Shown here piece after piece: positions 3,923-63,737 of a DNA stretch of 64,000 nt; the first letter of the stretch is position 1; every line of letters starts with the position of its first letter. A program made the translations under genes and the position numbers. Below the pieces are notes generated by a model. That model saw nothing but the letters and a program-made list of their open reading frames with translations, was not told the DNA's origin and did no database searches. Source of the DNA: Chaetoderma sp. LZ-2023a (lineage: Eukaryota > Mollusca > Caudofoveata > Chaetodermatida > Chaetodermatidae); assembly GCA_034401795.1 (NCBI GenBank), contig CM067366.1, positions 78,669,470 to 78,733,469 on the forward strand, read 5' to 3'.

Positions 3923-4123
3923 TTAACCCTTTCACTGATGAATTTCTCAAATTTCATTTTCAAGGCAACCATACAGAAATTTAAAAGCTGTTGAGTATTT
4001 TGAAATTAATTTGCCTGAAGTCGAGGCAGCGATGCCTTCCAGTCAAATTAATTTCAATATATGGAACAGAAAAATTTGTATAAAGTATTTACATTTTCAG
4101 GGATTTGTCAGTGAAAGTGTTAA
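3923..4123. mobile_element. TTAA-ended hairpin MITE, type P3
   Basis: It starts TTAACCCTTTCACTGA and ends TCAGTGAAAGTGTTAA, which are imperfect terminal inverted repeats. The centre (about 3990-4075) folds into a hairpin with arms TATTTTGAAATTAATTTG and the complementary CAAATTAATTTCAATATA. No coding capacity. It is a non-autonomous element by structure; relation to piggyBac is only suggested by the TTAA ends. Confidence 0.7.
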
Positions 4124-4349
4124 ACATCTATCCTTGTCACCGCCTAGCCTGTTCACTGATAAAATCTCCAAATGTCATGACAATCATACAGGACAGCAAT
4201 TGAATATTTTGAAAATAATTTAACTGGAAGCTGCTGCTAACTATGGAAGCAAGATCATCCAGGCAAATCATTTTCAAAATATTCAACAGGATATTTCTTC
4301 CTTCAAATGGAGCTTGTAATCTCTGTCTGCAGTGCTGAAATGGTTAAAC
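4120..4349. mobile_element. Degenerate hairpin MITE chained to the previous one
   Basis: It shares the TTAA at 4120-4123 with its neighbour. A central hairpin at about 4188-4290 has arms TTGAATATTTTGAAAATAAT and ATTTTCAAAATATTCAA. The loop contains a GCTGCTGCTAA segment like the loops of other copies. The ends are weak, so the boundaries are approximate. Confidence 0.5.
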
Positions 4350-4539
4350 AGTTTTATTGTATGTTCTTATAGACAATGTCATAGTGATGTTCGTATTCTG
4401 CTGATTATTTTGAAAAGCATTTTACTGGTGTCTTAAGCAGCAGTAGAATAATTTACAAAGTATACATCATACTTTATATTTCTGTTCTTTGGAGCTATCT
4501 TCTGTGTGTCTGTATGCCCCTACTTGACAAATTTATTTT

Positions 4540-5086
4540 TAGCTCACCATGGTGACCATCCATCATCTGTCCATTTGTCTGTTATCCGTATGTCCATCAA
4601 CTTTTGTTTAAAAACAGTACTCCTCATTAACTGCTTGGCAAATTTCAACCTAATTTGATTGGTTAATTTCTGGGGTGAAAATCTGAGATTGTATGAAAAA
4701 TTAACCGGAAATTCCCAAAACATGACTTCTCATTAACTGCTTAGCAAATTTCATCCTAATTTCATCCTAAGTATTCTATAGCTGTACGTTCTAGAACTTC
4801 TCTTCAGAATTTTTGTTAGTCTATTTTTTGGTGGCCATCTTGGATTATCTGAAAATTTTCCTGAACTATTTAAAACACAACTAAATTAATGGCCAGATTT
4901 CAACGAAACTTGTGTGCCCTGATCCTATGGCAATAGGTTTCAACGTACCAAACGTGAATTTTGATTGGTCAATTTGTTTGGTGGCCATCTTGGATTTTTT
5001 AAAGTTATACACCATGTCTATTTAAATGCAAATGGTTCAAATGCTAATGGTGCAGGAGAGCATCACAGGCCTTTGGACCTCTTGTT
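4540..5086 (+). repeat. Short 'AGCTCACC' element
   Basis: The head AGCTCACCATGGTGACCAT is followed by CCGTATGTCCATCAACTTTT and by phrases such as 'GGTGGCCATCTTGGAT' that recur in the long arrays at 21.3-25.8 and 45.7-50.1 kb. It closes with the family's end, CAGGCCTTTGGACCTCTTGTT-like sequence at 5066-5086. Non-coding; the small open frame inside it (4965-5228) is a chance ORF. Confidence 0.7.
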
Positions 5087-5337
5087 AAAAATAATTTGTG
5101 TATTAAAATTTTTAAAAAGCAACTTTTCATACACTTCAGTGAAATTATCACTTTTCAACCCTCAAATAATTCTACCAGTTCTTGTATATCAATCTCGAAA
5201 TGACAGCAATGCTACAAGAAGGTATTGAATGTTTTGAAAATAATTTGACTGGAAATTAATATAACAAGAGCAATCAGAGATTGCAGATCCTTAGACCTCC
5301 TCTTGTTTATGTCACGTTTAATCCTTTAATGGCTAAA

Positions 5338-5531
5338 TTACCACTCTGACATCAAAATCTTTAATTCTCATATAAAAATACAGGATTAACTGGTGTTTAT
5401 TTTTCAACAAATTTGGTGGAGGATGGTGCTGTCATAGACAGCAACATCTTCCACCAAAATTGTTGAAAAATGTACACCAGTTTCTTCGCTATTGACACCG
5501 TAAAGATAGAATATTGACATCAGAGTGGTAC
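5338..5531. mobile_element. Single palindromic MITE of a separate family
   Basis: The outer arms TACCACTCTGACATCAA (from 5338) and TTGACATCAGAGTGGTA (to 5531) are inverted copies. A second inner inverted pair, 5390-5481, carries TTTCAACAAATTTGGTGGA and its complement around a GTCATAGAC centre. A gap of non-complementary sequence separates the outer and inner pairs. No other copy was noticed in the window. Confidence 0.65.
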
Positions 5532-5984
5532 GGGTTAATAGTATATTTGCAGACTAAGATTGCGCAATTTTTAAAATATTTACCACCGAGCCAGTCATTC
5601 CACTGATAAATTTTCAAAAATAGTCTTCTCTTGGACCTTAAATGGGCATTTCTCAAGACCACTTGACAGGCCATTTGTTGCTGGATAGGTCATGAAAGGG
5701 TTAAAAGAATTGATTCTTTAGGATTTTCCACATTTTTAGACATTCTCTAGGGATCCCGACCGATGTTGTACAAACATAGTGTACCATCACAATCTTTCTT
5801 GTGTTAAAACTTCAGAAAAATCAAACAAGTAGCTTCCAAGATATTCATAGATCCAGAATTGATCTAATCTGAATACATAAGCTTTTAATCCGGATCATGG
5901 CCAAAATCTAGAAGTCGATCCCATTTGAGAAAAATGGGATCAGTTGTTTTGGATTAACAATGAGGAACATACTCACATGCACAG

Positions 5985-6040
5985 GTGCGCGCACACGCGA
6001 CTAACATTCACGCACGCACACGCACGCATGCACACAAAGA
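5985..6040. repeat. CA/CG-rich simple repeat
   Basis: An impure run of GCACACGC and CACGCACG words. No neighbouring gene feature was recognised between 5700 and 6210. Confidence 0.7.
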
Positions 6041-6261
6041 TGAATAGCTAATATAATAGTCAGAACATTTTGTGGTGAGACAAAATATTTTAGAACTATT
6101 TTACTGAAAGCCTTCTAGTCAAATTAGTTTGAAATATTCAACAGCTTACCCAGACATTTGCTGTGAAAATTTGATATCATGATATCAAGATTTAACAGGA
6201 TAAAAACTGAGTATCTAGACAAGATTCAGTTGTGTAAGCTCTGTGTGTACATACATGTATG

Positions 6262-6505
6262 TCTTTAGACCACCATCAGTCAAACGTTTAATGGACAGCA
6301 CACTGAATTTCTGCAGACTACATTTTCCTTGGGGTTTAACTTTGAATATGATGATTATTTTGAAAACAATTTGACTGAAAGTTGTTGGTGGCTTATCCAC
6401 CAACAACTTTGAGTCAAATTGTTTTCAAAATATTCAGCAATTCCTGAGTTATTGCACATTGAAATTAGTGTCTGGTGGTTTGCATCAGTCAAACATTTAA
6501 ACTGT
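6262..6505. mobile_element. Hairpin MITE, type P2
   Basis: The body words CTGCAGACTACATTTTCC on the left and CATTGAAATTAGTGTCTGG on the right are shared with copies near 32.3, 42.8, 44.0, 57.3 and 61.6 kb. The centre 6351-6439 is a near-perfect hairpin: TTTTGAAAACAATTTGACTG, then GTTGTTGGTGG, then the complements. The ORF at 6215-6406 is produced by the hairpin. Confidence 0.75.
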
Positions 6506-6627
6506 TTACTATAGCAGATTGCAATCTAGAGATGTAAATTTGATAGGCATCTCTTCTCATGGATACAGACAGATGCACGAAAACCTGTATATAATGACCA
6601 CCTGCTTTTAGGTGTGTGTTCTCAACC

Positions 6628-7311: not shown

Positions 7312-7595
7312 ATTGATGAATCAAGTTTCTCAGTCATATGGCGTCATAATCAACTACATCACATGTAGTCTGATGTCATAATCAATTACATCATTAATGA
7401 CAAGATTTAGTTTGTCATAAACGGTTAATAGTCTGTCAAGTTGTATGAATTGTATGTCTTTGCTATTTAATAAACATTCTGTTGAATATTTTGAAACTAA
7501 TTTGGCTGGGAGCTGTTGCTGCCTATGGCAGCAACAGCACCAGTCAAATTAGTTTCAAAATTTTCAACAGCTTACCTAACTGGAATCCTCCATTA
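7312..7595 (+). mobile_element. Hairpin repeat, type P1, 3' part missing
   Basis: The upstream body has ATATGGCGTCATAATCAACTA and CTATTTAATAAACATTC. The hairpin at 7479-7570 has arms CTGTTGAATATTTTGAAACT and its complement, with loop arms GAGCTGTTGCTGCC / GGCAGCAACAGC. The usual downstream GATCGATC...GGGCGGGGC tail is absent. Confidence 0.75.
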
Positions 7596-8144: not shown

Positions 8145-8532
8145 TCATGAATCCGGTTTCTCAGTCAATCATATGATGTCATAATCAACAATATCACGTG
8201 TAGGATGATGTAATTAATCAATTAGGTCATGAATGATTCAATTTAGTCTGTCTTAAATGATTAATAATCCGTCAAGTTGTACAAATTGTATGTCTTTACT
8301 ATTTAATAAACATACTGTTGAATATTTTGAAACTAATTTGACTGGGAGCTGTTGCTGCCTTAGGCAGCAACAACACCCAGTCAAATTAGTTTCAAAATAT
8401 TTAACAGCTTACATGTATAGTTTTCTGGAAATTGAGATTCAGAGAGGGCAGGGATCGATCGACCCCAACACGGAGAAAGTGTGAGTGGAGCTTAGCTAGA
8501 GATGGGCGGGGCATAGCTAAAACTGGATTCCT
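8145..8532 (+). mobile_element. Hairpin repeat, type P1, full length
   Basis: Body: CATATGATGTCATAATCAAC, then TTTACTATTTAATAAACATA. The hairpin is at 8315-8407 (arms CTGTTGAATATTTTGAAACT and complement, loop arms CTGTTGCTGCC). A tail at 8440-8532 has GGGATCGATCGACCC, GTGGAGCTTAGCTAGAGATG and GGGCGGGGCATAGCTAAAAC. Nine copies in both orientations occur in the window. Confidence 0.85.
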
Positions 8533-10824: not shown

Positions 10825-11023
10825 TTATTGAATGTCAACCATTTGTTGGTCAGGGGAGGAGTGTTTTTGCCGATTCAATGCCACTGGAATAACTCGTGGC
10901 TCTATTATCGAGACCGTCATTTCACTGGTATATTTTCTTGAATGGACTTCTCTTTGTCGACAAATGGACGTTCTTCAAGACAACTACTGAAGCCATTTTA
11001 GCAGACTTGATCATTAACCCTTT
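10825..11023. mobile_element. Degenerate type M hairpin MITE
   Basis: Recognisable from CACTGGAATAACTCG, CTATTATCGAGACCG and the end GACTTGATCATTAACCCTTT. Arms are poorly paired. Confidence 0.6.
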
Positions 11024-11270
11024 CACCGACAAATTCCTAAAAAAGTAAAATCTTTACGATATAAAATTTATTATGTTGAATATTTTGAAATTAATTTGAC
11101 TGGAAGGCGTTGCTACCTAATTAGACAGCAATGGCTTCCAGTCAGATTAATTTTTTAAAATTCAACAATTTTCCTGTATGGTTGGTTGCCTTGGAAAAGA
11201 GAAATATTCAATTTTTCATAGAAAATTACATTTGAGGCCACAAGATGGTTTGCATGAGACAGTAACCTAT
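11015..11270. mobile_element. Hairpin MITE, type P3
   Basis: It begins TTAACCCTTTCACCGACAAA and shares its start with the preceding copy. Hairpin about 11080-11168: GTTGAATATTTTGAAATTAA with its complement and a loop of GGCGTTGCTACC...GACAGCAATGGC. The body word TCTTTACGATATAAA is shared with the copy near 36.2 kb. Confidence 0.7.
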
Positions 11271-11813: not shown

Positions 11814-11999
11814 GTAAGTACAAAGAAATGTAATATTATAAATGGTTTGAACTGGAAAAGAAATATTTATTTCGTACATCTATCAAGAGAGAGAATTAAC
11901 ATATTAATTGTGTATATACATGCGTATGTACAAGGACAAACACAACTAACTATTTATTTGATACTGATGTATAGTTAGGGACTGCCACCCGGTGAAATG

Positions 12000-12366
12000 G
12001 AGGAATTCAGTTTTAGCTATGCCCCTCCCATCTCTAGCTAAGCTCCACCCACACTTTTCCGATGTTGGGATCAATCTATCTCTGCACTCTCTAAATCTCA
12101 ATTTCCAAAAAACTATACAGGTAAGCTGTTGAATATTTTGAAACTAATTTGACTGGCCGCTGTTGCTGCAGTCAAATTAGTTTTAAAATATTCAACAGCA
12201 TGTTTATTACATAGCAGACATACAATTCATACAACAATGCTTAGTCCATCATCAATTAAGCGTTCGTAGAGAACTTAGTTACGTCGTTCATGATGTAATT
12301 GATTATGACCGCAGCATACATGTCACCTAATTGATTATGACATCATATGATTGATCGATAAACTGG
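12000..12366 (-). mobile_element. Hairpin repeat, type P1, full length, inverted
   Basis: The tail (TTAGCTATGCCCCTCCCATC, then GCTAAGCTCCACCCACAC) comes first, then the hairpin at 12126-12198, then the body with ATGATGTAATTGATTATGAC. The hairpin loop is shortened to CCGCTGTTGCTGCAG. Confidence 0.82.
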
Positions 12367-13284: not shown

Positions 13285-13384
13285 TAAAGCAAATTATGTT
13301 CGTGTTGGTACAATGGATCATTGACATTCTATACAGTACAGATCAGAAATATTTTAAATGTTTCGAAAACAAAGAAAAATTATA

Positions 13385-13668
13385 CTGTTGAATATTTTGA
13401 ACATAATTCAATTGGAAGACGTTCTGAGCCTGGGCCATGTATCTATCTGCCTGGGCCATGTAGCTATCTGCCTGGGCCATCTATCTATCTGCCTAGGCCA
13501 TGTAGCTCTCTGCCTGTGTCATGCAGCTATCTTCCTGGGCCATGTATCCATCTGCCCGGGCCATGTAGCTATCTGTCTGGGTCATGTAGCTATCTGCCTG
13601 CGCCATGTATCTATCTGCCTGGTCTGTGTAGCTATTTGGTTGGGCCATGTAGCTATTTGTCTGAGATT
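13385..13668. repeat. 21-bp minisatellite grown in a hairpin half-element
   Basis: After a left hairpin arm (GTTGAATATTTTGAACATAA, 13386-13405), a unit read as TGGGCCATGTAGCTATCTGCC repeats about eleven times from 13431 to 13668 with no change of 21-bp register. Because 21 is a multiple of three, long frames open on both strands (13321-13692, 13358-13675 and 13582-13773). They read seven-residue repeats such as GPCSYLP. I regard them as non-coding. Confidence 0.85.
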
Positions 13669-14604: not shown

Positions 14605-14823
14605 TTAACCATATAACACTTGAACTTGTTCAAGAAAACTTGATTTGCAGCCCAAGAGAAGACTATTTTTGAAAAATTTACCACTAGAATGACTGGCTCG
14701 GTTATCGAGCCAGTCATTCCAGTGGTAAATTTTCAAAAATAGTCTTCTCTTGGTCTGCAAATGGACATTTCTCAAGACCACTACAGACGCCGTTTTTGGC
14801 TGATATGAGTGTTAAAGGATTAA
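14605..14823. mobile_element. Type M hairpin MITE (gamma/alpha), near-perfect palindrome
   Basis: From TTAACCATATAACACTTGAA to GTTAAAGGATTAA. Core GACTGGCTCGGTTATCGAGCCAGTC; the arms from AAGAGAAGACTATTTTTG to CAAAAATAGTCTTCTCTTGG pair with almost no mismatch. It begins only 75 bp after exon 2. Confidence 0.9.
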
Positions 14824-15440: not shown

Positions 15441-15737
15441 AGGGTTTAGATGGGTTACAGTCGGCTCTGCTATAGCAAGGAATCCCACCCCAGCTATTTC
15501 TGTGTCCATCCATCTGCCTGTCCATCTGTGGATCATTTACAAATGGTGGCACGTTGTATTGCTATATAATAGAAATATTGTTCTGCATTACTATTATATC
15601 ATACAAATAACTTAACATCTCTCTTCCTTCTTAAAAACTGTTAGAAATCTGAATTCTGAGTATTGTATTTTATAAAACAATAGAGAGATCCGATCTGTCA
15701 CTCAAGTAGATGACGTTATAATCAACAGATCTTTCCA

Positions 15738-16095
15738 TGTTTGGCTATGCCCCGCCCATCTCTAGCTAAGCTCCACCCACACCAAACTCATGTTGGGATC
15801 GATCGATCTCTGAACTCCCTGACTATCAATTTCCAGAAAAGTATGCAAGTAAGCTATTGAATGTTTTGGAACTAACTTGACTGGATGACTAATTTGTCCA
15901 GTTAAATTAGTTTCAAAATATTCAACAGCGTGTTTATTAAATAGTAGAGACATACAATTTGTACAACGTGTCGGACTAATAAGAGTTAAAGACGGGCCAA
16001 ATAGAATCATTTATTACGTAATGATTATGATGTCATCCTACACACTTAGCTGATTATGATGTCATATGGCATCAAATGATAGATGGATACTCTGG
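15738..16095 (-). mobile_element. Hairpin repeat, type P1, inverted
   Basis: Tail (GGCTATGCCCCGCCCATCTC), GATCGATCGATC, hairpin at about 15854-15928 with a shortened loop, then ATGATGTCATCC-type body. It joins the next copy head to head near 16095. Confidence 0.82.
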
Positions 16096-16438
16096 AAAGG
16101 TGAATTATGTCATATGTAGGCTGACGTTGAAATCAAAATGCATAAGGAATGAATGATGTATCTATCTAGCTCTGTCATGAACATTGAATAGTCCATTAAG
16201 TGTACAAATTGTTTTTTCTATTTAATAAATCAGTCTGTTGAATATTTTGAAACTGATTTGACTGGACGCTGTTGCTACATCACCCAATCAAATTAGTTGC
16301 AAAGTATTCTTACAGCTTACCTGTATATGTTACCTTGTTATTGGGATTCTGGGAATTCAGGATTCGATCGATCCCAACACAGTCAAAGTGTTGAAAGAGC
16401 TTAGCTAAAAAGGGGCGGGGCAAAAGTTAGAAATGGAT
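16095..16438 (+). mobile_element. Hairpin repeat, type P1, plus orientation
   Basis: Body, hairpin at about 16235-16315 (left arm intact, right arm diverged: TTGCAAAGTATTC), GATTCGATCGATCCC and AAGGGGCGGGGCAAAAG tail. With the preceding copy it forms a head-to-head pair. Confidence 0.8.
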
Positions 16439-16607
16439 CTTATTATTCTACATATGTGTTGATTATTTTATTCATAATGACCTTGGAAACTGTTACTAGC
16501 TATTAGCTATTGCTACCTTAGCCAGCAACAGCAAACAGTCAAATTTTGTGTTCAAAATGTTCAAAAGAATATTTTGTGTGCTTGAAAAAGTGTCCTGCCG
16601 TAAGGGT

Positions 16608-18878: not shown

Positions 18879-21282
18879 AATTGGTCAGAGCCCAAATACT
18901 AGGTGGGTTGGTAAATTGCAAATCAGGAATGAAAGGTTAATCACCAAAAATACTAAAACCAACTAAATTGCTGAAGTGCTGAAAGAGCACGAACAAACAA
19001 ATGTTCTAAATAAAATACAATAAAATAATGATAATTAAAAAATCTCAGCAAAGAGAATTTAAAAACAGACGTGAGATGGTGAAGAAGACGGCTGACTAAA
19101 GAATCTAGGCAATTGAGCCTAGGTTTGAGTGGCGAAACTAGAAATGTCAGATTGTGAATTGAATCTGATCTTTCAGATAAAAATAATGTAGAATCTGACA
19201 TTTATACTGCACCTTGCATAATGTCGCATCCACTGATAGATCTGCATAGAATGCGAAGGAGAAAGCCATACCATGAACATCTTGTGCCTTAACACTTACT
19301 GAGTGTCTCCTGGAGATACATTCTAGTGTCAATTAATGGTGTCTGTATTCCAGTTGATGAGATCCGCGCTTACTAAACAAATTTGCTTAAGTAATCCTAA
19401 CGGTGTTTCAAAAAGATCTTTTAAATTGGAAGGATTGAAAACAATTAATTAGGTTTTATATATATAAGATCTCTTCAAGGGCGAAGAATGTAGCCAGATC
19501 TCCTACCACTTAGAAAAGATCATTCACAAAAGACAATTGCACTAGAAACTGTTGACAAAGGATATTAAAGACAATTGGCACTAGAAAGTTAAATTGAAGA
19601 TATTTAAACAAAATGTGATATCTATGACTGGGCCAGAGCATCTACCGCCAGAGCCTAGCCTGGAGGAAGAATATGAACATCAGATCTGGACGCTATACTG
19701 AGTAGAAACTTAGTGGGATGTTATAAATGAGCTACATGGAAAATCATTCTACCTGGAATGCGAGATGCTGATAGATTTCCTGACATCTCCACCGCAGGAG
19801 GAGGACCAAGACTCCAGACAAAATATGATAACCTCAAGCACCCTGCTTGTTGATGAAAGTTGCTACTATAGAAATGACTGCATGAGCAGATAGGTGGCTT
19901 GTGAAAGAGACAATATCTCTTCATTCTCCGATATTCCAGAGTATTGAAGAGGGAATAAGACTACTTTATCTGATTCCATAGACACAAGAATGAGAGGAAA
20001 TTTATAGCGATCCCCCATCCCCAAACTCTTAGTAGAAAGGATCAAAGGAAGGATTTGTCCGAAGACTACGGGTTCAAACATATGATGAATTTAAACGAGA
20101 CTCATAAAAGATATGGCTGAAGAACCTTCGAACTGGCCATGAGGCTGAAGAAACTCTGAGGAAGAAGCTTAAACATACCAATGTATTCTGGAGAAAAAAA
20201 TACATCATGCATGATATTAAGTCTAACATGATATTTTGGTTAAAAAATCCCAGCAACAGATCAAATTTATATATGACGATGAAGGATTGGTATGGAAATA
20301 TGCTCAACTTTTTCTCAATCTTTTATCCTGTCTAAGACCGGAGTGAAAAACTTGGTTGATTTGATGATGCCACATAAGAACAAGACATCAGAAAGGACCT
20401 ACAGATGGATAAACTGGAGAATTGGTACCAATGACACCCAGCGAATGAAAATGCAGTGTATGCGGTCGGGATGAAGGACAAAATTCTGACTTACCAGACT
20501 TGACCTTTGTACACAAAACTGACTCCATTCAGCCCAAATTTTAACACAATTAAGGAACCTTCCAAGCCAGAGGAATCCTAGACTGGGAATGATGTGATTA
20601 AAAGAACCCAGATCCAGTTAGGATCAATTCTGTATATATGGAAATATCAGAAAACACTGTCCCTTATCCTTGATGAGACCAGTGATGACTGGCCAAAATG
20701 ACTCCATCTCCATATTATTCCTTTCATTGATGAACTCCATTTCTGAGACAACATATCAGGAAAAGAGTTGAATATTATAAAACGATTTGACTGTAAGTCA
20801 TCGTTGTCTCAAACGGCAATAAAGCAGCCATGGGTTCCAGTCAAAATAATTCCAAAATATGCAACAGAATTAGTATTAAATCATAAGAACATGAGGTGTA
20901 AAATTTTCCCGCAAGTTGTCAGAAAGGATAAATATGTGAGTTGAAGATAAGAGCTGAAACCCTATAAAAGATGATCTGCCAGCACCTCATACTCCTTAAA
21001 ATCCTTGGATACTGCCATTCCTCCACTGTATCCTACTTGAAAAGAGCAGAAATGTATTGATCAGAAACAGATGCAAGACCTAATGTCTCAGGAGACTAAC
21101 ATGGTTTGATAGAAAAATGGGTGAGGATTCAATGACTAAGTTGATTGTACCTTATAATGTAGGAAATCTGATACCTATGACACGCATGAGACTAGCTATA
21201 TCCATCCCCACCCCTGAGAGAGTAGAGATTACCTAGAAGCGCTTAAGCATGACAGCTAGGACCAGAATAAACCTGTAGAATC
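18879..21282. other. AT-rich intronic region with many stop-broken frames
   Basis: It contains a degraded hairpin at 20767-20872 (GAGTTGAATATTATAAAACG / TTCCAAAATATGCAACAG). Runs of amino-acid-like sequence broken by TGA and TAA are present near 19650-20500, but I cannot match them to a protein. It could be a decayed interior of the long-inverted-repeat element. Confidence 0.4.
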
Positions 21283-31869: not shown

Positions 31870-32230
31870 AATAAACTTAACTTTTTATCTGATTTGGATT
31901 TCAATGGAATACAATATATTCATTTGTCATTTTAAGGCATAATATAGAAATTGTATAAAATTGTTGGTGTATGTCCAACGGTAACTAAATTAAATATTCT
32001 AACTGGGCATGAACTTATTCAGTTGAGTGCATGCATGCTTGTAAGGGCGTGCACACATAATATAATGACGAGATAAAGTATATCTTTATTCTTTATTGCC
32101 TATCTTCACCCTTTAGATGCTTGTTGAATATTTATCATAGAGTATGTCTGAGACATTTCCTCATTTCCTCGTTAGAGGGTGGAGTTAAATAGATACACAC
32201 CACTCACTTGATACAGTATCTCAGCTGACA
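31870..32230. other. No feature recognised
   Basis: AT-rich intronic DNA between the LINE fragment and the next hairpin element. Confidence 0.4.
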
Positions 32231-32236
32231 AGTAGC

Positions 32237-32443
32237 TGTCTGCCTGCTGAATTTCAGCAGACTACATTTTCCATGTGGTTTAACTCTGGATATACTGAGT
32301 ATTTTGAAAACAAGTTGACTGAAAGTTGTTGGTGGCTAAGCCACCAACAACTTTTAGTCAAATTGTTTTCAAAATATTTAGTATCTTCAGAGTTATTGCC
32401 CATTGAAATTATTGTCTGGTAGCTTGCAGCAATCAGACAGTTA
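32237..32443. mobile_element. Hairpin MITE, type P2
   Basis: Left GTCTGCCTGCTGAATTTCAG, hairpin 32294-32382 (GTATTTTGAAAACAAGTTGA... with GTTGTTGGTGGCTAAGCCACCAAC centre), right TTATTGCCCATTGAAATTAT and CAATCAGACAGTTAA. Confidence 0.8.
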
Positions 32444-32490
32444 ATTCCAAGCATGAACATTTCAACGCTGAATAGTGGATATGAAACGTG

Positions 32491-32576
32491 CTGAATATTG
32501 TGAGAACAATTTTACTACAGCAGTGAGCGACTTTCTTCAGTCAAATTGCTATCAGAATGTTCAGCAGGGTTTTGAG
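32491..32576. mobile_element. Degenerate hairpin of the P2 kind
   Basis: GTGCTGAATATTGTGAGAAC and GCTATCAGAATGTTCAGCA are imperfect inverted arms; CAATTTTACT faces AGTCAAATTG. No flanking body was recognised. Confidence 0.5.
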
Positions 32577-33032
32577 CACCATTTGTAGTAAATTGCTAGA
32601 GGGATATATGTTGATAAATGCAAGATGTGTGTATCCAGTTCTGTTTATGTGCAACAAATCTGTCTCAAAAACTAACAAACCATTAGTAGCTCTGCTTTCA
32701 GAATGTGATAGAAATCTTTGCAAAAGAATCTGGACAAAGAGAAAGTTATCAGTACACTGTCTTCTTGATGTTTGAAAATTGTATTCCGTAATTAGCTGCA
32801 CTTAGCATATTGTTTCCTTGCAAGTTGGATACACACACACATATATAAAAATGTTTAGCAACAATGAGAATATTACTGTATAAAGGTTATTTAACAAAAA
32901 CAATAAATTGATTCAAATATATTATTTAATTGATAGGCCATTTTCCAATCTTGTTACTGTAATGCTAGCATCGCGCCTTTAACACGGCATCATTCAACGG
33001 AAGGGTCCAATTTAAATAATGACACTGAGCTG

Positions 33033-34056: not shown

Positions 34057-34202
34057 GTTCGGTATGGTAAACTTTTAAGCGTTTTCTGTTACCGTTCGTT
34101 ATCTGCTTTTGCAATATGGTGAAGTATTGCCTTCGCTACCCACCAATGTGGGCTAGTGCATGAAAAATGCATTTTCACATGCAGTAAGCGTGCGGCAGAG
34201 AA

Positions 34203-34310
34203 ATGCGATGTGGGTGTGTGGTAGTGAGTGTGAGTGGGTGGGTGGGTGGGTGGGTGGGTGGGTGGGTGGGTGGGTGGGTGAGTGAGTGAGTGAGTGAGTG
34301 AATGAATGAA
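34203..34310. repeat. GGGT/GAGT tetranucleotide microsatellite
   Basis: About eleven GGGT repeats at 34234-34278, then GAGT and AATG repeats. The minus-strand frames made of PTHP and LTHS repeats here are artefacts. The G-rich strand could form quadruplexes. Confidence 0.95.
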
Positions 34311-34402
34311 TGAGTGTGCCATTAAATGGAATCAATCAATTAATCAATGTATGCATTGAATGGAATGCATGCACTCAACTGAATAAGCGCATGCATATAT
34401 AC

Positions 34403-36198: not shown

Positions 36199-36440
36199 TA
36201 ACAAAGTATTAACAGACAATTCCCTGAAAAAGTAAATTCTTTACGATATAAAGCTTAATCTGTTGACTATTTTTTAATTAATTTGACTAGAAACCATACG
36301 CAGCAACGGCTTCCAGTCAAATTAGTTTCAAAATATTCAATAGTTTTTCTATATGGTAGTGTTAAACCTATGGCAGCAACGGCTTCCAGTCAAATAATTT
36401 TAAAATATTCAACAATTATCCTGTATGGAAGTGTTAAATA
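36199..36440. mobile_element. Hairpin MITE, type P3, with duplicated right arm
   Basis: Body TCTTTACGATATAAAGCTT as at 11.05 kb. Left arm at about 36257-36290, first right arm ending near 36346 (TCAAATTAGTTTCAAAATAT). A second copy of the right arm (GGCAGCAACGGCTTCCAGTC to TATTCAACAA) follows at 36371-36414. Confidence 0.72.
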
Positions 36441-36734
36441 TGAGATATGGGAAATTCTGCATCGGTAACAGTATTAAGTCACATATAGATGACAAATGTA
36501 AATTCACAGCCATATAAAACAGTAACCATTAGTATATAATAAATAAAGTACATGATATCCAGAGGGTATAGATCTACATGCCAATGCACGGTCTAGCAAC
36601 ATTAGCTAGTGATTCTCAATCTAAAGATCAATCCTTTCAGCTTGACAGACCAATGACTTTGTTACAATGTAGTGAATAGTCTTCTGAATATTTTGAAATT
36701 AATCTGACTGCCTTATAGCGCATCACGTCCCATA

Positions 36735-37020: not shown

Positions 37021-37310
37021 CATGAATGGTGTGTAGCCACCCTTCACCACCATGTAGACAATTACTGCTTACAAAATATATGGTTGATTGTTATCCTTTA
37101 CCTATATAATTTATATCATATGATTTTACTGGAAGATGTTGCTGGCTAAGGTAGCTGTTGTTTTATAATACAACAGCTTCCACAGTACTTGCCATTATCA
37201 AAATAATGTGTTTAGGTAAATCTGTTTGCTTTTTGGATGTCATACAAAATAAAATGTTAATAAATATATTGACATGTTAACCTTAAAAAAAATCAAGATA
37301 TTTGCTTACA

Positions 37311-37741: not shown

Positions 37742-38320
37742 GTCTGTATTTTAAAAGCCCTAGATAGAACATGCGTTTTCTTGATGGGTCAATGTCCTTT
37801 CACCGTCTAATATATTGTCAGTCATTAAATCATCCCTGACACAGGTCTGAGACGGAGACAAGCCGGTAAATGTCATGTTTAAAATTAGGAATAGACAATC
37901 TACGTAGGATCACCATCCGATTTAGAAAGCTTCATGAATAATACATCCACATCTTTCTTTCTCGGAGGGTTTGGCAACCTTTGTATCACGCTGCACTAGC
38001 CGCTAAGGAACTTGCTGTTGACAAGTTCCAAAATTGATAACTTATGGTAGTAGATAATATATTCATTAACACGCGGTCACGGAGAAGTGTGTCTTGATAA
38101 CATTTCACGGACAATCTCTTTCCATGTCTAGTTATTTCATCAAGGAGTTGTCTCCCTTACCCCCATTGAACATAAGTCATTAAACAGTGAAACGTGTCTA
38201 TATCAGATACGTGCCTTTGTGGTCAAAAGATAATTGCTTCATGAGACATGTGGTCAGGTAGTCATAAGACCACTCATTTTATGGAACCATCTACTTTTGG
38301 ACACAAAAGCTAATTAACCT
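37742..38320. other. No feature recognised
   Basis: Intronic sequence without a family repeat or plausible exon. Confidence 0.4.
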
Positions 38321-38324
38321 TTCC

Positions 38325-38628
38325 AGTTTATCCATCCATCATATGATGTCATAATCAACTAGGTGACGTGTAGGATGACATCATAATCAATGATGTCATG
38401 AATGACATAGATAAGTTCGGCGCGACCGCAGAATTGATGATGGGCTAAGCCTTGTTGTACGAATTGTATAGCTTTACTATCTAATAAAGATGCTGTTGAA
38501 TATTTTGAAACTAATTTGACTGGGCTAAATTAGTTTCAAAATATTCAACAGCTTACCCGTATAGTTTTCTGGAAATTGATAGGCAGGCAGTTCAGGGATT
38601 GATTGATTGATCCCAACATTGATCCCTA
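38325..38628 (+). mobile_element. Hairpin repeat, type P1, minimal loop
   Basis: CATATGATGTCATAATCAAC body. The hairpin at 38493-38551 has arms CTGTTGAATATTTTGAAACT and complement separated by only TTGACTGGGCTAA. GATTGATTGATCCC tail; the GGGCGGGGC part is absent. Confidence 0.8.
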
Positions 38629-42710: not shown

Positions 42711-42917
42711 TGTCTGCCTGCTGAATCTATGTAGACTATATTTTCCATGGGATTTAACTCTGGATAAGCTAAATATTTTTAAAACAATTTGACTGAAAGT
42801 GGTTGGTGGCTAAGCTACCAACAACTTTCAGAAATTAAAAAAAAAAATATTCAGCAAGCCCAGAGTTATTGCCCATTGAAATTATTGTCTGGTTGCTTGC
42901 AGCAGTCGGACAGTTAA
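42711..42917. mobile_element. Hairpin MITE, type P2
   Basis: GTCTGCCTGCTGAATCTATG left body, GTTGGTGGCTAAGCTACCAAC centre, TTATTGCCCATTGAAATTAT right body, end GTCGGACAGTTAA. The right arm is damaged by an A-run (about 42837-42847). Confidence 0.78.
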
Positions 42918-43372: not shown

Positions 43373-43698
43373 CATGTTTCCAAAACAATATAAAGACTAT
43401 TGTTGAAAATTTTTAACAGAACATTTCTTACATTCATTTCAAAATTGTCCTAACTATCATGTTTCTGTTTTTGTTTTGAAAAGATTTTAACTTATTTCTG
43501 AGCTGTAATTTAGGCTGTAAGTTTTCTTTTCAGGACGAATGTAATTTTGAACACTCTTAAGGGTCGTTCTTAATAACATATACTAAACTTAGCAGATAAA
43601 TTTGTTTACACATTTGTGGTCCGCTGTGCATTTATATATTTAACATGAAATATACTCTTGTCGGTATTACATATACTACTTTCCTGTTTTCCTCACAG

Positions 43699-43797: not shown

Positions 43798-43885
43798 GAC
43801 GCTGACTTGGGATTATCTCCCCTTGTCAGCGAGAACAGATGCTTCAGTGATATGTGATGCACTTTATTATTGTCACAAATATGAT

Positions 43886-44087
43886 TAATTTTCTGACTGC
43901 TGTAAGACGCCAAACAATAATTTCAATGAGCAATAACACTGAGCCTAGTGAATATTTTGAAAACAATTTGACTGAAAGCTGTTGGTGGCTTAGCTTTCAG
44001 TCAAATTGTTTTCAAAATATTCAGCATATCCAGAGCTAAATCCCATGGAAAATGTAGTCTGCAGAAATTCAGCTGGTAGAAAGTTAA
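43886..44087 (-). mobile_element. Hairpin MITE, type P2, inverted
   Basis: Hairpin at 43949-44023: TGAATATTTTGAAAACAATT, AAGCTGTTGGTGGCTTAGCTT, and complement. Flanks CAATAATTTCAATGAGCAAT and CATGGAAAATGTAGTCTGCA are the P2 body in reverse. It begins less than 100 bp after exon 4's donor. Confidence 0.82.
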
Positions 44088-44612: not shown

Positions 44613-45240
44613 CTCTTATCAAACAACCCATTCATTCGAGTGTTAAGTTTTCTAACATGTGTGAACAGACTAGAGTTGCAACTTGTGCAGTCAGAAATGT
44701 CAAACATTTGACAGACTGATATAGCTGTGAGTTGCAACTAATAATATTCTATTGTCATGCAAATAGGCAATTCTTTTGAAAGTCTTAACCAATCCTGGTC
44801 ACTATTGGCTAAGTGATTGTACGTAATTGTCAATCACAAGTGAAAAAAGAAGGAAAGGATAGCTACTAAGATTATGCGGCCATCTATAAGTGTGCCAAAT
44901 TGTATGTGTCTGTTCACGCATCTGTCACATCTATTAAAGTGTTTTGTAGCATCATAGTCTCTCTCACATTCCATTGTACGTTACCGTATTTACAGTCCTT
45001 TGATCCCTTGCTATGTGACGTAGTGGAATAAGCAGTTTTCATTCCGCCGATCAGATTTCCTTTGTTTCTTATCAAGCAATTTCATGGCAGAAGTTGACTG
45101 ACCCCAGCTCATTGTTTATATTTATGAAGTTTCGAGAACCTACCACATATCAAAGGTCTGCAAGCACGGTACTCGATACTGGAGAACAGCGAGAGGGCAA
45201 GGCCCCTGTGATAGGATGATGGTCTTAAATTTACAGTGGA
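44613..45240. other. No feature recognised
   Basis: Single-copy-looking DNA; no continuation of the DH domain seen on the plus strand. Confidence 0.4.
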
Positions 45241-45244
45241 TGAA

Positions 45245-45600
45245 TCCATTTTTAGCCATACCCTGTCCATCTGTAGCTAAGCGCCGCTCATGCTTTGTGT
45301 GTTTGGGTTGATTTATATATTTTGAATCCTGAATTCGCAGAAAGAATCCCACTTTCATGATAACTATACAGATAACCTGTTGAATATTTTGAAACTAATT
45401 TGACTGGCGCTGCTAGTGCCTATGAAAGCAACAACAGCCAGTCAAATTAATTTCAAAATATTCAACAGAATGTTTATTTAATGGTAGACATACAATTCGC
45501 AGGTTCATCACAGAGTATTTCTGTCAATTATGACTGTTACATCAGTCTACATGTGATGTAATTGATTATGATGTCATATACTTGATTGACAGATCGGATT
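45245..45600 (-). mobile_element. Hairpin repeat, type P1, inverted
   Basis: Diverged tail (TAGCCATACCCTGTCCATCT), hairpin at 45377-45468 with loop arms GGCGCTGCTAGTGCC and AGCAACAACAGCC, then GTAATTGATTATGATGTCAT body. Confidence 0.8.
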
Positions 45601-50125: not shown

Positions 50126-51026
50126 ACTTATTGGTCCAGAGCTGTATGGCCATTACCGTGACAACCGTAGATCTCATTGACTTAATTGTACATACCTGTA
50201 CTAGCTAGCGATTTTGAAAGCCAGTCACTGAGTTTTTTAGAAGAATTTGATAAAATTATTGCTCCCTTAATCAGCAATATCTAATGCAAGTGTTCCTACA
50301 GAGGAATTCGTGTTGATTATTTTGAGATAAGTTTGATTGAAAGTTGTTGTCAAATCATTTTCAGTCAAATCAATTTTCAAAACATTACCTAGTGGCCCTT
50401 GCATTGTCTATTTGAGAACAATTTGAAGGAAAGTTGTTACTTCTATAGACAGGAACAATTTTTAATCAACTTAATTGTTTTTAAAAATATTTAGCCTGGC
50501 ATGTTTCAGCTCTACCATAGAAAATAGATCATTATTAGAATCAAACTTCTTTGCTCTTACTTTGAACTATGGATGCAGCTTTTCTCATCTCACCTGGCAA
50601 AAGTACAATGACTATCATTAGAGTTGTTACTACATTACAACCTACCTCCTTGCATTACTATTGCTCTTTCCTTCTCTGAATTTTTAACAGCCAATGTTTG
50701 CTGGGTATTGTGGTTACAGAGTGACTGAAGGCTTCTTCAGGTATCTCCATACTCTCTCTAATGATGAGATCCATAGTAATTCGCTTGAATGCTATATCTC
50801 AGAATGAGGCAAGAAGAGGTTTAATCCAATACCCAGTGCCACTGAGTAGGTCATTAAGCACAATGACAACCTCATTGGCTGATAGCTATCACATGACCTT
50901 ATTGGTAGCACCCAAGACTTCATTCCTTTTCCTACTATTGAAGGGAAGGGTGTATAAAAAATTTTATAGCCAATTTAAAAGTTATTTTCTAACTTTTGGA
51001 ATTGCTATGGATAGACAAAAGTCATA
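50126..51026. other. Mostly unassigned; possible retroelement leader at the right
   Basis: A weak hairpin-like element lies near 50312-50390 (TGATTATTTTGAGATAAG / CAATTTTCAAAACATTACC). A GTGTATAAAAAATTTTATAG word near 50950 resembles a TATA box upstream of the frame at 51039, but no terminal repeat was found. Confidence 0.35.
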
Positions 51027-56295: not shown

Positions 56296-56489
56296 TTTTA
56301 AATCTTACTGGTCAGATTTGACACATTTATTTTTCGTTTAAGAAATATATCACTGAATAATTTGAAATCAATATGACTGGTGGAAGTCGGCAGCTACAGC
56401 TTCCAGTCCACTTATTATCAAAATATAAATTTTTTTAATCTTTGCATATATATTGAAGGTTGCAACATGTGCCTAATATTAGATAGTTA

Positions 56490-56693: not shown

Positions 56694-57256
56694 TTTGGGA
56701 ACTGGCCCATTTACACTCATGAATAACAGATGGATATTCTTACAAAAACACTACTGGATTGTACTTTTACACTAATTTATATTGGCAAAAAAAATTCCCC
56801 AAGTAACTATCATGTTGTTTTTCCAAGGTCATAGCCCTTTGTGCACCAGTTTCAAGACATCAGTTACAGACGTCTATCATCTGCTGATTTGTGTAGTTTT
56901 CATCATGTACTCTTCCAACCACCAGCCCCATCAATGTTGGTCAAGAATGTTAAGTTATACATAATTAGATTATTTAAAGACAAGATCCCTGTCTTATTCT
57001 CTGAATTTGATCACTGATATATGTATATCAGCTAGACATTCCTGGAACTGAACTATACACATTAACTAGCTAAATGGTTCGAAAATTTAAATCTGGCTTT
57101 TTGACAGCAGGATTGAGTAAAACTTTGTCTAATGATTCCAATCATATTATATATAGTTTTCTAATAAAATTAAGATTACAATTATTGGTGAAGAACACAT
57201 CGTGAATTCTGTCCACTAGATATATTCAGGTTAGAGGTTCCAGAATTAGAATTTTA

Positions 57257-57453
57257 ACCATTTGACTGCTGAGCTTTTGCAGATGACTTATTCCAAGGGG
57301 TATATCTCTTGAGCTGCTGATTATTTTGAAAATAATTTGACTGGCTAAGCCACCAACAACTTTCAGTCAAATAGTTTTCAAAATATTCAGCGAGTTAAAA
57401 TGTTTTTGCTCATTGAAATTATTGTCTGGTGGCTTCCAGCAGTGAGACAGTTA
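57257..57453. mobile_element. Hairpin MITE, type P2
   Basis: GATTATTTTGAAAATAATTT, GGCTAAGCCACCAACAAC, CAAATAGTTTTCAAAATATTC. The left half of the loop stem is deleted, so the arms are unequal. Ends GCAGTGAGACAGTTAA. Confidence 0.75.
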
Positions 57454-57746
57454 AAGAAATTTTAATACATCTCCCAGAGGCTCAATATGCCTTAATAAAA
57501 TACGATTCTGTGTGGGGAAATTTCGTTGTATATGACACATCGCTAAATATTTCTTTTACTTAGGTTGACTTGAATAAAGGCAGCAACAACGTAACTGTCA
57601 GATTACATTCAAAATATATAATAGTGTTCCCGCATAGTTGTCTTGAAATTAAGTTACTGAGACTATCTTCAGCGAATCTTTTGGGCCTTGTGGTTAGCTT
57701 CATAAATCTAATAATAATAGCCAGTTAGGGCAGGGGTGGGGTGGAA

Positions 57747-58486: not shown

Positions 58487-58541
58487 CCGAAGACTTGTAA
58501 TTTAGCCTTTAATATCGTGATTCGTGTTATTTCTTGCTTTA

Positions 58542-58900
58542 ATTCACCTTTCCAGAGTACCCAGCCATCATATGATGTCATAATGAACTGCGTAATGACG
58601 TCGATAAGTACGTCACGAACGCATATTTGATGACGGTCTATGGGCTGTTGTACAAATTGTTTGCTTTTACTATTTAATAAATATTCTGTTGAATATTTTG
58701 AAACTAATTTGACTGGGCGCTGTTGCTGCCTATGGCAGCAACAGCACCCAGTCTAATTAGTTACAAAATATTCAACAGCTTCCCTGTATAGTTTTCAGGA
58801 AATTGATAGCTATGGCATTCGGGGATCGATCAATCCAAACACGGCGAGGTGTGGGTGGAGCTTAGCTAGTGATGGGCGGGGCATAACTAAAAATGGAAAG
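58542..58900 (+). mobile_element. Hairpin repeat, type P1, full length
   Basis: TTTCCAGAGTACCCAGCCAT, CATATGATGTCATAATGAAC, hairpin at 58686-58778 (loop stem GGCGCTGTTGCTGCC TAT GGCAGCAACAGC), GGGGATCGATCAATCC, GATGGGCGGGGCATAACTAA. The end AATGGAAAGG may pair with the start CCTTTCCA. Confidence 0.88.
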
Positions 58901-58956
58901 GTCCATTGTTAAATGTTAAATCCGGGTTAAATTGATCTGTGCAGAACTTCTTCCTT

Positions 58957-59190: not shown

Positions 59191-59321
59191 GATCCAGTAG
59201 TTTTCTGGACACCTTTAGTTTCTCACAAATTTTGCTGTCCAGTGACCAGCGATGGTTACACAGTGCAGCTGAGAAATAAGCTAACAATTTTCCAAAACAA
59301 AAACATAAACATGTTAGTACA

Positions 59322-59607
59322 ATTCACCTTTCCAGAGTACCCACCCATCATATGATGTCATAATGAACTGTGCGATGTGTACAATGACATCATAATGAAT
59401 GATGTCATGAATGGCATCGATAAGTACATCACGAACGCATATTTGAAGATGGTCTATGCGTTGTTGTGCAAATTGTTTGCTTTTACTGTTTAATAAATAT
59501 TCTGTTGAATATTTTGAAACTAATTTGACTGGGCGCTGTTGCTGCCATAGTCAAATTAGTTACAAAATATTCAACAGCTTCCCTGTATAGTTTTCAGGAA
59601 ATTGATG
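59322..59607 (+). mobile_element. Hairpin repeat, type P1, tail replaced
   Basis: Nearly identical to the copy at 58542 through the hairpin (59502-59578), but the left side of the loop stem has no partner (GCTGTTGCTGCCATAG). After TCAGGAAATTGAT it passes directly into another repeat, so the tail is missing. Confidence 0.85.
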
Positions 59608-60600
59608 GATTTCAACCAAATTTGCCTGAAATGATTCTATGATCTTAGGTTCCTAAACTTCTTTTCAGAATTGTGATTTATCAATTTTTTAGGTGAAAAT
59701 CTTGGATTTTATGAAAAATGTACCAGAAATTATCGAAATGTATTTTCTCCGTAGCCGCTTGGTGGATTCAACTTAATTTGGCTAAAAGGACCATATTGTG
59801 GCAGAATTCTAATTAGGCAAATTTTTTAGGTGAAATTCTTGAATTTTATGGGAAGTTTAAAGGAAATTTTGAAAACGGCCCTAATTGATGGATTTCAAAC
59901 AAATTTGGCTGGAAGGATTTTATGGCATAAGGCTCCAGAAATTCTATTCATAATTTGGATTGGTGAATTTTTTGTGTAAAAATCTTAGATTTTATGAAAA
60001 ATTTAACGTAGATTTTCAACACACGTCTCTTCCTTAGCCGCTTGGTGGATTTCAACTGAATTTGACTAGACAGGCACTGTGGTTGGTTTTACGCTCCATA
60101 TCATCTATTCAAAATTTTGATTGGTCAGGTTTATTTAGGTGGAAATTTCCAGAAATTCTTTAAACCACTACTCATACTTAATCAATGCCCAGATTTTAAC
60201 CAAATTTGGCCCGAAGTGCCTCGTGGTGATAGTCTCCAACTGAGCCATTCCAAATTGTGATTGGTTGATTTTCATAACTTTTCTAATGCCTGCTGTAAAT
60301 GACTTCTCAACATTCACCGGGTGGATTTCACGAAACTTGCTTGGATGAACCCTATGGTGATTGGCTCCAGAACTTCCATTCAGAATTTGTATTAGTTCAT
60401 GTATTCAGTGGCCATCTTATTCTTAGAAATGACAACTCAGGGACTGCTGTACGGATCAGGCTGAAACTCATTAGATTTCATCAATGTAACTATTTAAGGT
60501 GATTAAAGTGTGCTCAAGAGAACTTGATGTGTGATAAAACATGGCTGTCAAAATTTAGGGCTTGTGGCCATATTGGATTTGTTTATTGGCTGGATGTAAC
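59606..60600 (+). repeat. 'AGCTCACC'-type element, headless, ~155-bp monomers
   Basis: GGATTTCAACCAAATTTGCC, GATTTTATGAAAAATGTACC and related words recur. Its end (GCTAATGAGGCAGGTGAGTG, TTGTGTTTCTTGTT) appears at 60951-61022, after a MITE. Confidence 0.75.
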
Positions 60601-60874: not shown

Positions 60875-60950
60875 TTTCCTACTGAATACTGCGCATACTG
60901 AATTCCAATTTTGTAGTTTATGTCTTGTTACTTATGAAATTAAAGAATTA

Positions 60951-61580: not shown

Positions 61581-61758
61581 TTAACCGTCTGCCGGCTAAA
61601 TTTCTGCAGACTACATTTTGAAAACAATTTGACTAAAAGTTGTTGGTGGCTAAGCCACCAACAACTTTCAGTCAAATTGTTTTCAAAATGTTTAGTAGGT
61701 CAGACGTTATTGCCCATTGAAATTAGTGTTGGATGGCTTGCAGCAGTGAGGCAATTAA
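61581..61758. mobile_element. Hairpin MITE, type P2, compact
   Basis: TTAACCGTCTGCCGGCTAAA start and GCTTGCAGCAGTGAGGCAAT-TAA end. Hairpin at 61613-61690 with the perfect stem CATTTTGAAAACAATTTGAC and GTTGTTGGTGGCTTAAG-type apex. Confidence 0.82.
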
Positions 61759-61824
61759 CACATTTCATCATATACATTGTAAATGATGTCTAGATTATGC
61801 TATGGTTAACGGGAGGCAGATTAA

Positions 61825-61902
61825 TTTGAAAACAATTTGACTGAATTTTGTTGTTACCTGAGGCAGTAACAACTTTCAGTCAAACTATTTTTTTAATATT
61901 CA
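61825..61902. mobile_element. Isolated hairpin of the P2 kind
   Basis: TTTGAAAACAATTTGACTGA, TTGTTGTTACCTGAGGCAGTAACAAC, TTTCAGTCAAACTATTTTTT. No P2 body around it. Confidence 0.65.
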
Positions 61903-61904
61903 CC

Positions 61905-62298
61905 CGGTCATATACATAGTTTATTTAAAAGTAGTTTGTCTGGAAATTGATGGTGAAAGTTGTTCATGACCATGGATTTATTGGCCACAGTAATAGGTTC
62001 CCATTCATTTCTCGTTCAAGCCATCAACCTAGATCTGAATCCGTCTATGGAAAGTTCCTTGTGTCTTTCCAAGATACATCTACAACTTCTTATTGGCCCA
62101 CACTTGGTACACCATACAGAGGGCATATGGAAGCACGCTGTGCTGGTGATTGCATAACATCACTTGGTCAGAATTCGTTAGTGCAATATTATTTCAGAAC
62201 TCTTCTATTTTCAACACGTGTGACCCACAAGTCAGTAATAATAATCTTTTTCTTGAAGTAAATAAGTATGTACACATATTTACTGCAGACTCAGTGTA
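61905..62298. other. Unassigned stretch with overlapping short frames
   Basis: Three overlapping plus-strand frames (61947-62261, 61960-62157, 62150-62350) exist but show no recognised domain, no conserved splice context and no DH continuation. Confidence 0.4.
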
Positions 62299-62300
62299 TG

Positions 62301-62487
62301 AACCATTTAGTGGTCAAACCAGCCCAAGCCAACCTCTGAAGCGGTCTTAAAGAATGTCAATTTGCAGGACAAGAGAAGAGTATTTTTTAACTTTTAAACA
62401 CCTGAAATGTCAGGCTCAATAAGTTACTCAGTTTCTCAAGACCACTGCAGAGGTAATTTTTGGTGGGATTTACAATTAAAGAGTTAA
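62301..62487. mobile_element. Type M MITE (beta/delta-like), core deleted
   Basis: ACCATTTAGTGGTCAAACCA, TCAATTTGCAGGACAAGAGA, GGCTCAATAAGTTACTCAG, AATTAAAGAGTTAA. Confidence 0.7.
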
Positions 62488-62500
62488 AATATATAGCATT

Positions 62501-63486
62501 TAGTGTGCCAACAGGAAATGAATATTCAGTGGGTAAAGATTTAGTGTGCTAACAGGAAATGAATATTCAGTGGGTAAAAATTTAGTATGCCAACAGGAAA
62601 TGAATATTCAGTGGGTAAAAATTGTGTGCCAACAAGAAATGAATATTCAGTAGGTAAAAATTTAGTGTGCCAACAGGAAATGAATATTCAGTGGGTAAAA
62701 ATTTAGTGCGCCAACAGGAAATGAATATTCAGTAGGTAAAAATTTAGTGTGCTAACAGGAAATGAATATTCAGGAGGTAAAAATTTAGTGTGCTAACAGG
62801 AAATGAATATTCAGTTGGTAAAAATTGTGTGTGCCAACAGGAAATGAATATTCATTAAGTAAAAATTTAGTGTGCCAACAGAAAATGAATATTCAGTGGG
62901 TAAATATTTATGTGTCTACAGGAAATGAATATTCAGTAGGTAAAAATTTAGAGTGCCAATGGGAAATGAATATTCAGTACCAGTGGGTAAAAATTTAGTA
63001 TGCCAACAGGAAATGAATATTCAGTAGGTAAAAATTAGTATGTCAACTGGAAATGAATATTCAGTAGGTAAAAATTTAGTATGTCAACTGGAAATGAATA
63101 TTCAGTAGGTACAAATTTAGTATGTCAATTGGAAATGAATATTCAGTAGGTACAAATTTAGTATGTCAATTGGAAATGAATATTCAGTTGGTAAAAATTT
63201 AGTATGTCAACTGGAAATGAATATTCAGTAGGTAAAAATTTAGTATGTCAACTGGAAATGAATATTCAGTAGGTACAAATTTAGTATGTCAACTGGAAAT
63301 GAATATTCAGTAGGTAAAAATTTAGTATGTCAACTGGAAATGAATATTCAGTAGGTAAAAATTTAGTATGTCAACTGGAAATGAATATTCAGTAGGTAAA
63401 AATTTAGTATGTCAACTGGAAATGAATATTCAGTAGGTAAAAATTTAGTATGTCAACTGGAAATGAATATTCAGTGGGTAAAAATT
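62501..63486. repeat. 41-bp minisatellite, about 24 copies
   Basis: The core word GGAAATGAATATTCAG recurs at 41-bp spacing with a few small indels from 62514 to 63459. Units in the left half read GTGTGCCAACAGG; those in the right half read GTATGTCAACTGG and are more uniform. No frame runs through it. Confidence 0.95.
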
Positions 63487-63505
63487 GAGATTTTCCTTAC
63501 CAACC

Positions 63506-63737
63506 TTAACCGGTAACACTTTCATGACGAATATGGCCAAAACCAGCCTCTACAGTGGTCATTTGCAGGACAAGAGTAAATTATTTTTTGAAAATTTATC
63601 ACTGGAATTACTGAAGTTACCAAGTCAGTTATTCCAGTGCAAAATTTTCAAAAATAGTCCTCTCTTGGCCTGCCAGTAGACATTCAATAAGGAAATATTT
63701 AGACTTCTTTGACCAAATTTGGTAATTAAAGGGTTAA
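63506..63737. mobile_element. Type M hairpin MITE (beta/delta)
   Basis: TTAACCGGTAACACTTTCAT to TTGGTAATTAAAGGGTTAA. Central GGCTC...GAGCC lost (TACTGAAGTTACCAAGTCAG). Confidence 0.82.

Follow-up and report, generated by a model that had tools for sequence, protein, structure and literature searches.

How has one palindromic hairpin come to sit at the centre of several families of miniature inverted-repeat transposable elements (MITEs) whose ends are of different types? The question is raised by a 64,000-nucleotide stretch of DNA (hereafter, the window) from the caudofoveate mollusc Chaetoderma sp. LZ-2023a (assembly GCA_034401795.1, contig CM067366.1, positions 78,669,470 to 78,733,469 of the forward strand). 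On balance, we consider it probable that these families form a MITE superfamily with one ancestral hairpin module, in which descent of a TTAA-type element was joined by at least two acquisitions of other ends and followed by amplification; a shared core, distinct types of ends, the tracking of core with body and symmetric change between families are the direct observations on which this account draws.

The core is a hairpin of ~87 bp around which no fewer than five MITE families (P1, P2, P3, P4 and M) are centred. Its arms of ~45 nt consist of TTGAATATTTTGAAA, 2 nt, AATTTGACTGG and then GCTGTTGCTGCC, in place of which the P2 arm carries GTTGTTGGTGGC, and are followed by a 3-nt loop and the complement. 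With the 2-nt spacer, the exact arm has 99,827 matches (49,662 + 50,165) in the 2.44-Gb genome, and the reversed arm pattern, used as a control, has none genome-wide. The original prediction that P1, P2 and P3 share a palindromic core is confirmed by this abundance and by the presence of the strings where they had been reported; of the spacers of two or three bases that it described, the former is nearly always found and the latter is rare (244 + 237 = 481 exact matches in the genome). Within the window there are 50 arm matches at ≥20/26 with the 2-nt spacer, compared to none at ≥20 in five Markov simulations, and a profile search identifies 32 core loci. The exact 27-nt arm occurs 9 times, against 2.6 expected per 64 kb at the genome-wide rate, so that the window is enriched in cores. 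The profile search also finds 9 core loci in 69.3 kb chosen for another reason, namely piggyBac matches, from which a rough extrapolation gives ~300,000 cores genome-wide. Folded as single-stranded DNA, six test cores reach z values of −6.9 to −16.8, with 0/200 shuffles as good in each case; cores with a shortened centre are common, and no exact core was found in viral contigs. P1 cores display both loop orientations, CCATAGG and CCTATGG (58689-58775 compared to loci L006, L019_L020 and L021), which suggests inversion inside the hairpin.

Genome DNA searches were carried out for all five families, in each of which the best 40 of 3,447-6,177 first-look candidates were scored and 20 copies were fetched; these sets are narrow samples, because the copies were picked among those nearest to one query. 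The resulting consensus sequences, 209-391 bp long (391 bp for P1), have common ends within each family and terminal inverted repeats in 5/5 cases; being short, discrete-ended, interspersed in high copy number and without apparent coding capacity, the elements qualify as MITEs. By region, mean difference from the consensus is 0.8-2.5% in P1, 6.3-8.9% in P3 and 3.6-8.2% in P2, and the low values of P1 indicate a young subfamily, with the caveat that the P1 query is itself a young copy. The P1 consensus also includes GCCCCGCCC in its A arm and TGACGTCAT in its B arm, which we take to be GC-box-like and CRE-like, respectively.

The five families have three types of ends. P2, P3 and M all end in TTAAC, as expected from the TTAA-like ends that had been predicted for them and that are present in each consensus as well as in the copies (left/right among 20 copies each: P3 16/11, P2 7/15, M 16/19; intact on both sides: P3 9/20, P2 5/20, M 15/20), and by this sequence they may be regarded as piggyBac-like. 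Among the 119 piggyBac matches listed for the genome, 15 loci were fetched, and candidate TTAA inverted-repeat ends were assigned to seven of them; copy L105 starts with TTAACCCTTAGCACTCGGATGTC, near the M end TTAACCCTTACCACTCTGATGTC (17/19 by eye), the P2 end compares to a piggyBac copy of the CACGTTGACTGCCA type at 8/14 by eye, and no close match to the P3 inverted repeat was seen among the seven copies. P1, with the inverted repeat ACCTTTCCA, reads AAT...AATT and has no TTAA at its ends (20 copies: AATT on the right in 20/20, AAT on the left in 19/20). P4, a further core-bearing family absent from the original prediction, has the consensus TACAGTACAGCTCAG and the inverted repeat CAGTACAGCTCAGAAATAACTT, with TA at each end in 13/20 copies and at both in 8/20; its TA ends and CAGT-type inverted repeat are presumably of Tc1/mariner type. 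At least three kinds of ends probably need different transposases.

Young P1 copies sit at AATT inside P4-type hairpin cores at L006, L043 and L047. Since the L006 insertion (GAACATAAT, P1, AATTGGATTGGAAGA) and the similar one at L043 can be compared with an uninterrupted P4-type core in L112 (GAACATAATTGGATTGGAAGA), the P1 target duplication can be read as AAT (3 bp), or alternatively as AT (2 bp) if the neighbouring A is counted as part of P1. A preference of P1 for hairpin targets was considered and is not supported, the mean fold z being −0.59 at 20 target sites and −0.50 at 60 control AATT sites; 2/20 P1 target sites clearly match a core and one does so weakly.

Despite their different ends, the 45-nt core arms of the five families are 65-91% identical, with 0/200 shuffles as good in all 20 comparisons. 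This includes M, whose arms are 65-72% identical to those of the other families (0/200 shuffles); M, described beforehand as having an unrelated core, carries a diverged version of the same one, and on this identity the view of its core as unrelated was rejected. Beyond the core, likeness among families over the adjoining 30 nt is mostly at chance level, and the outer parts of P1 have no match in the consensus of any of the other four (best E 1.2). The original claim that the bodies do not resemble each other thus stands for the outer parts of P1 and gives way where P1 and P3 share a flank and P2 and P3 are weakly alignable; correspondingly, full-length alignment of P1, P2 and P3, proposed as the mark of a single old family, is approached for P2/P3 and fails for P1. 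That ordinary mutation of one fold-back MITE gave rise to all types and to their ends, the core being simply the slowest part, is in our judgement unlikely: it would explain the TTAAC ends of P2, P3 and M, the weak full-length likeness of P2 and P3 and the fact that the two arms of P3 still match each other, but the inverted repeats and target sites of P1 and P4 are different and the P1 outer sequence has no counterpart in the other consensus sequences. Because their ends differ in kind, one old family is insufficient for P1 and P4.

The clear exception to chance likeness beyond the core is the A side of P1 and P3 (0.67 over 30 nt, 0/200 shuffles), weaker A-side likeness being seen for P3/M (1/200) and P4/M (2/200). 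When aligned from the core outwards, the A arms of P1 and P3 agree at 31/45 positions as consensus sequences and 34/46 as hand-taken older representatives (0/100 shuffles each), the match stopping just inside the P3 inverted repeat. An ungapped 24-nt test of 76 flank pairs (listing threshold 40/2000 shuffles) listed only A-A and B-B pairs, with P1/P3 A-A at 0/2000. P1 and P3 thus clearly have ~45 nt in common beyond the core on the A side and, with less certainty, ~24 nt on the B side. Given the results of the flank tests, strong on the A side and modest on the B side, there is good support for a module that extends past the palindrome in P1/P3, and only a suggestion of one in P4. A hairpin that is mobile in its own right, a small element that entered unrelated MITEs time and again, appears improbable: no part other than the core is clearly shared by all five families, yet the likeness of P1 and P3 extends into the flank, and inspection by eye of the P1, P3 and P4 consensus sequences shows no target duplication next to the palindrome.

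Whether cores still move between bodies was assessed on 130 distinct core loci, 75 of which could be classed on both core and body after 27 ambiguous ones had been dropped and 28 had proved to have no recognised body. Core class equals body class in 69/75; the six mismatches (five P1 bodies with a P3-like core and one reverse case, with margins of 3-7 bits) include the related loci L001, L002 and L029. Set against body classes, a comparison that the original prediction had suggested, a tree of 100 cores groups by body with 4 body-label changes, the minimum; P1, P2, P4 (support 92) and M each occupy one side of a branch, and P3 alone does not, which fits derivation of P1 and P4 cores from P3-like ones. 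Frequent core exchange among present-day families is hence not supported, and the idea of a hairpin cassette that moves between elements survives as ancient events, consistent with the same core in three end types and with the P1/P3 flank, rather than as continuing exchange.

The palindrome itself has been kept as the families diverged. Counted between four families, M being left out, symmetric changes affecting both arms make up 10 of 13 differing columns for P4/P2, 8 of 12 for P1/P2, 6 of 9 for P3/P2, 6 of 10 for P1/P4, 3 of 6 for P3/P4 and 2 of 7 for P1/P3; together with core identities of 65-91% next to flanks mostly at chance, they support in outline the earlier proposal of a core conserved under constraint while the bodies diverged. 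Within families, compensated changes exceed those in shuffles in P4 (14 vs 6.6, 0/500) and P3 (4 vs 1.2, 5/500), where subfamily structure could explain part of them, and not in P1, P2 or M. Individual copies thus mostly decay without compensation, placing the upkeep of the palindrome in the source elements. Those whose hairpin is intact may found families more often, or replication through the hairpin may re-copy one arm onto the other, so that either an advantage or arm re-copying would preserve the structure. The core differs less from the consensus than the arms in P3 (6.3 vs 6.9-8.9%) and P2 (3.6 vs 6.0-8.2%), and does not do so consistently in P1 (1.0 vs 0.8-2.5%). Least likely of all is that the core is kept because each copy serves the host or its RNA hairpin yields small RNAs: the strong folding and the steadier, if in P1 not consistently so, core would suit such a role, but in three of the five families the mutations of copies go uncompensated, shortened centres are frequent and a search of the window at Rfam gathering scores gave no match.

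Under the account that we favour, P2, P3 and M would have arisen by diverging descent from a TTAA-type fold-back element, while in the lines leading to P1 and P4 a P3-like core and some flank would have come, at least two times, between the ends of other transposons, likely by nested insertion, the inner ends then being lost or recombined, with the new composites amplified by a different transposase. That the core-bearing module acquired new ends at least twice is probable; the nested insertions and the identity of the transposases are what the ends and flanks lead us to infer. More tentatively, the hairpin may be a portable module selected for spread, aiding multiplication inside any ends and acquired by MITEs that depend on three or more types of transposase. 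Arm against arm, P2 matches itself at 47/63 positions and P3 at 38/63, the latter value being the reason why P3 looks like a decayed full palindrome.

Several observations speak against the origin favoured here. No P1 carrier without the core was found; among 15 P1 pieces that lack it, the 8 that were viewed resemble deleted or truncated copies or segments of a single long repeat. The core is absent from the ends of the seven piggyBac copies, among which no sign of its derivation from piggyBac subterminal sequence was seen. On the B side, the P1/P3 likeness is modest (22/34 with 0/100 shuffles as good; over 30 nt, however, 22/200 shuffles do equally well), and the B-B pairs of the ungapped test (P1/P3 9 and 20, P3/P4 9, P1/P4 7 and 21 of 2000), uncorrected for 76 pairs, hold in the case of P3 solely for its hand-taken B sequence and not for its consensus. 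The P2 and P3 A arms are weakly alike (40/68, including TTAAC), and for the B arms of the two families the match is no better than in shuffles (19/100 as good). Crossed comparisons also beat 100 shuffles (P1 A/P3 B 28/45, P2 B/P3 A 39/65), as expected if the P3 arms were once palindromic, so that orientation is not strictly fixed. Finally, the core tree has 93 columns and weak resolution, each family being represented in it by copies selected for their likeness to a single query.

The copies and cores located in the window, where P4 is represented only by fragments, are as follows (no strand is assigned to entries that give none).
58541..58907, minus strand: P1, near-complete copy; core 58689-58775
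59321..59609, minus strand: P1, A side truncated; core 59505-59574, shortened centre
8162..8527, minus strand: P1 copy; core 8318-8403
7333..7567, minus strand: P1 copy, B arm and core; core 7482-7567
11997..12366, plus strand: P1 copy; core 12129-12195, shortened centre
15728..16106, plus strand: P1 copy; core 15857-15925, shortened centre
16238..16437, minus strand: P1-like copy; core 16238-16309, A arm 16313-16437
38313..38618, minus strand: P1 copy, core mostly deleted; core remnant 38496-38525 by profile
45237..45465, plus strand: P1-like copy; core 45380-45465
6300..6500, plus strand: P2 copy; core 6352-6437
32233..32444, plus strand: P2, near full-length fold-back; core 32295-32380; inside the Tc1-like element 32014-34387, between its 23-bp inverted repeats
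42711..42917, plus strand: P2 copy; core 42770-42836
43885..44086, minus strand: P2 copy; core 43949-44024
57256..57454, plus strand: P2 copy; core 57317-57390
61582..61758, plus strand: P2 copy; core 61613-61694
3923..4122, plus strand: P3 copy with TTAACCCTTTCACTG end; core 3991-4064
4148..4286, plus strand: P3-like copy; core 4200-4286
11015..11205, minus strand: P3 copy; core 11076-11164
20720..20864, plus strand: weak P3-like copy; core 20768-20864
36212..36468, minus strand: P3, core partly duplicated; cores 36263-36340 and 36366-36412
57566..57618: weak P3-class core fragment
5338..5538, plus strand: M copy, limits being the span matched by most relatives; core 5395-5475, a distant relative of the P3 core
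13330..13429, plus strand: P4 (TA-ended) fragment, half core
43401..43507, plus strand: P4 fragment
16501..16564: weak core of 27 bits, body not recognised
32491..32564: core of 22 bits, body not recognised
36685..36710: core fragment of 16 bits, body not recognised
37121..37184: core of 25 bits, body not recognised
50314..50491: two weak cores of 21 bits each, body not recognised
56353..56426: core of 37 bits, body not recognised
61818..61902: core of 48 bits, body not recognised

The beta-sandwich domain of molluscan haemocyanin has 44 matches in the genome, in accord with a molluscan host. The window, which is rich in small palindromic repeats, opens with a 91-bp satellite array (1-3686, ~40 copies, 97% matches). 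In the Tc1-like element at 32014-34387, which has 23-bp inverted repeats, HTH_Tnp_Tc3_2 and DDE_3 are matched by different open reading frames; its ends differ from those of P4. A second very common hairpin family, H, with arm ...GCAGACCAAGAGAAGACTATTTTTGAAAATTTACCACTGGAATGACTGGCTCG, has 54 arm matches between 5589 and 63623 (for example at 14675, 14708, 17336, 17369, 40956 and 40989), is apparently denser than the core families and bears a weak likeness to the P3 core (1/200 shuffles). Around L007, L002 and L029, the larger loci L154, L155 and L156 (the first two partly read as N) contain a repeat of at least 3 kb, ~71-83% alike between loci, with several P1 units and half cores. This ~3-kb repeat, common to L001, L002, L007 and L029, was rejected as an ancestor and taken as a composite, because several P1 units lie inside it and no gene was recognised in its readable part by open reading frame listing alone.

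Among known systems, the nearest published pattern is that of short interspersed elements (SINEs), families of which share central domains (CORE, V, Deu, Ceph; HaSE1/HaSE2) that the authors of PMC3272025 read as constraint for retroposition; there, too, one conserved middle is found in otherwise different families. SINEs are retroposons with Pol III heads, whereas here a palindrome lies in DNA-transposon MITEs with inverted repeats; the window contains no tRNA and, at gathering scores, nothing that matches Rfam, and so shows no tRNA-related or other RNA-gene head of a SINE. piggyBac-type MITEs have TTAA ends as do P2, P3 and M, the M end resembling a piggyBac copy of the same genome, and differ in that seven such copies lack the core in their ends and that P1 and P4 have other ends. 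As summarised in PMC12628747, zebrafish Angel is a fold-back MITE for which hairpin-based amplification has been proposed, and Xenopus miDNA4 is a MITE that captured a pre-existing repeat. Angel also forms a hairpin, but that of one element, in contrast to one hairpin sequence across several end types; miDNA4, like the elements proposed here, had a foreign module inside a MITE that was then amplified, but this is a tandem repeat in one Tc1/mariner MITE rather than a hairpin in at least three end types. The present design was not noticed in literature searches aimed at chimeric MITEs and at MITEs with common internal sequence under different ends, although a report of it may still exist.

In summary, the presence of one hairpin in MITEs of three end types is unusual. 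The huge copy number of a few non-coding MITEs is an open question, for which credit usually goes to ends and transposases; one internal hairpin kept across three end types, perhaps in 300,000 copies, points to internal sequence affecting success, and the core-bearing families are natural chimaeras for testing this effect. If the hairpin is indeed a portable module, it would be a DNA-transposon counterpart of the central domains of SINEs.

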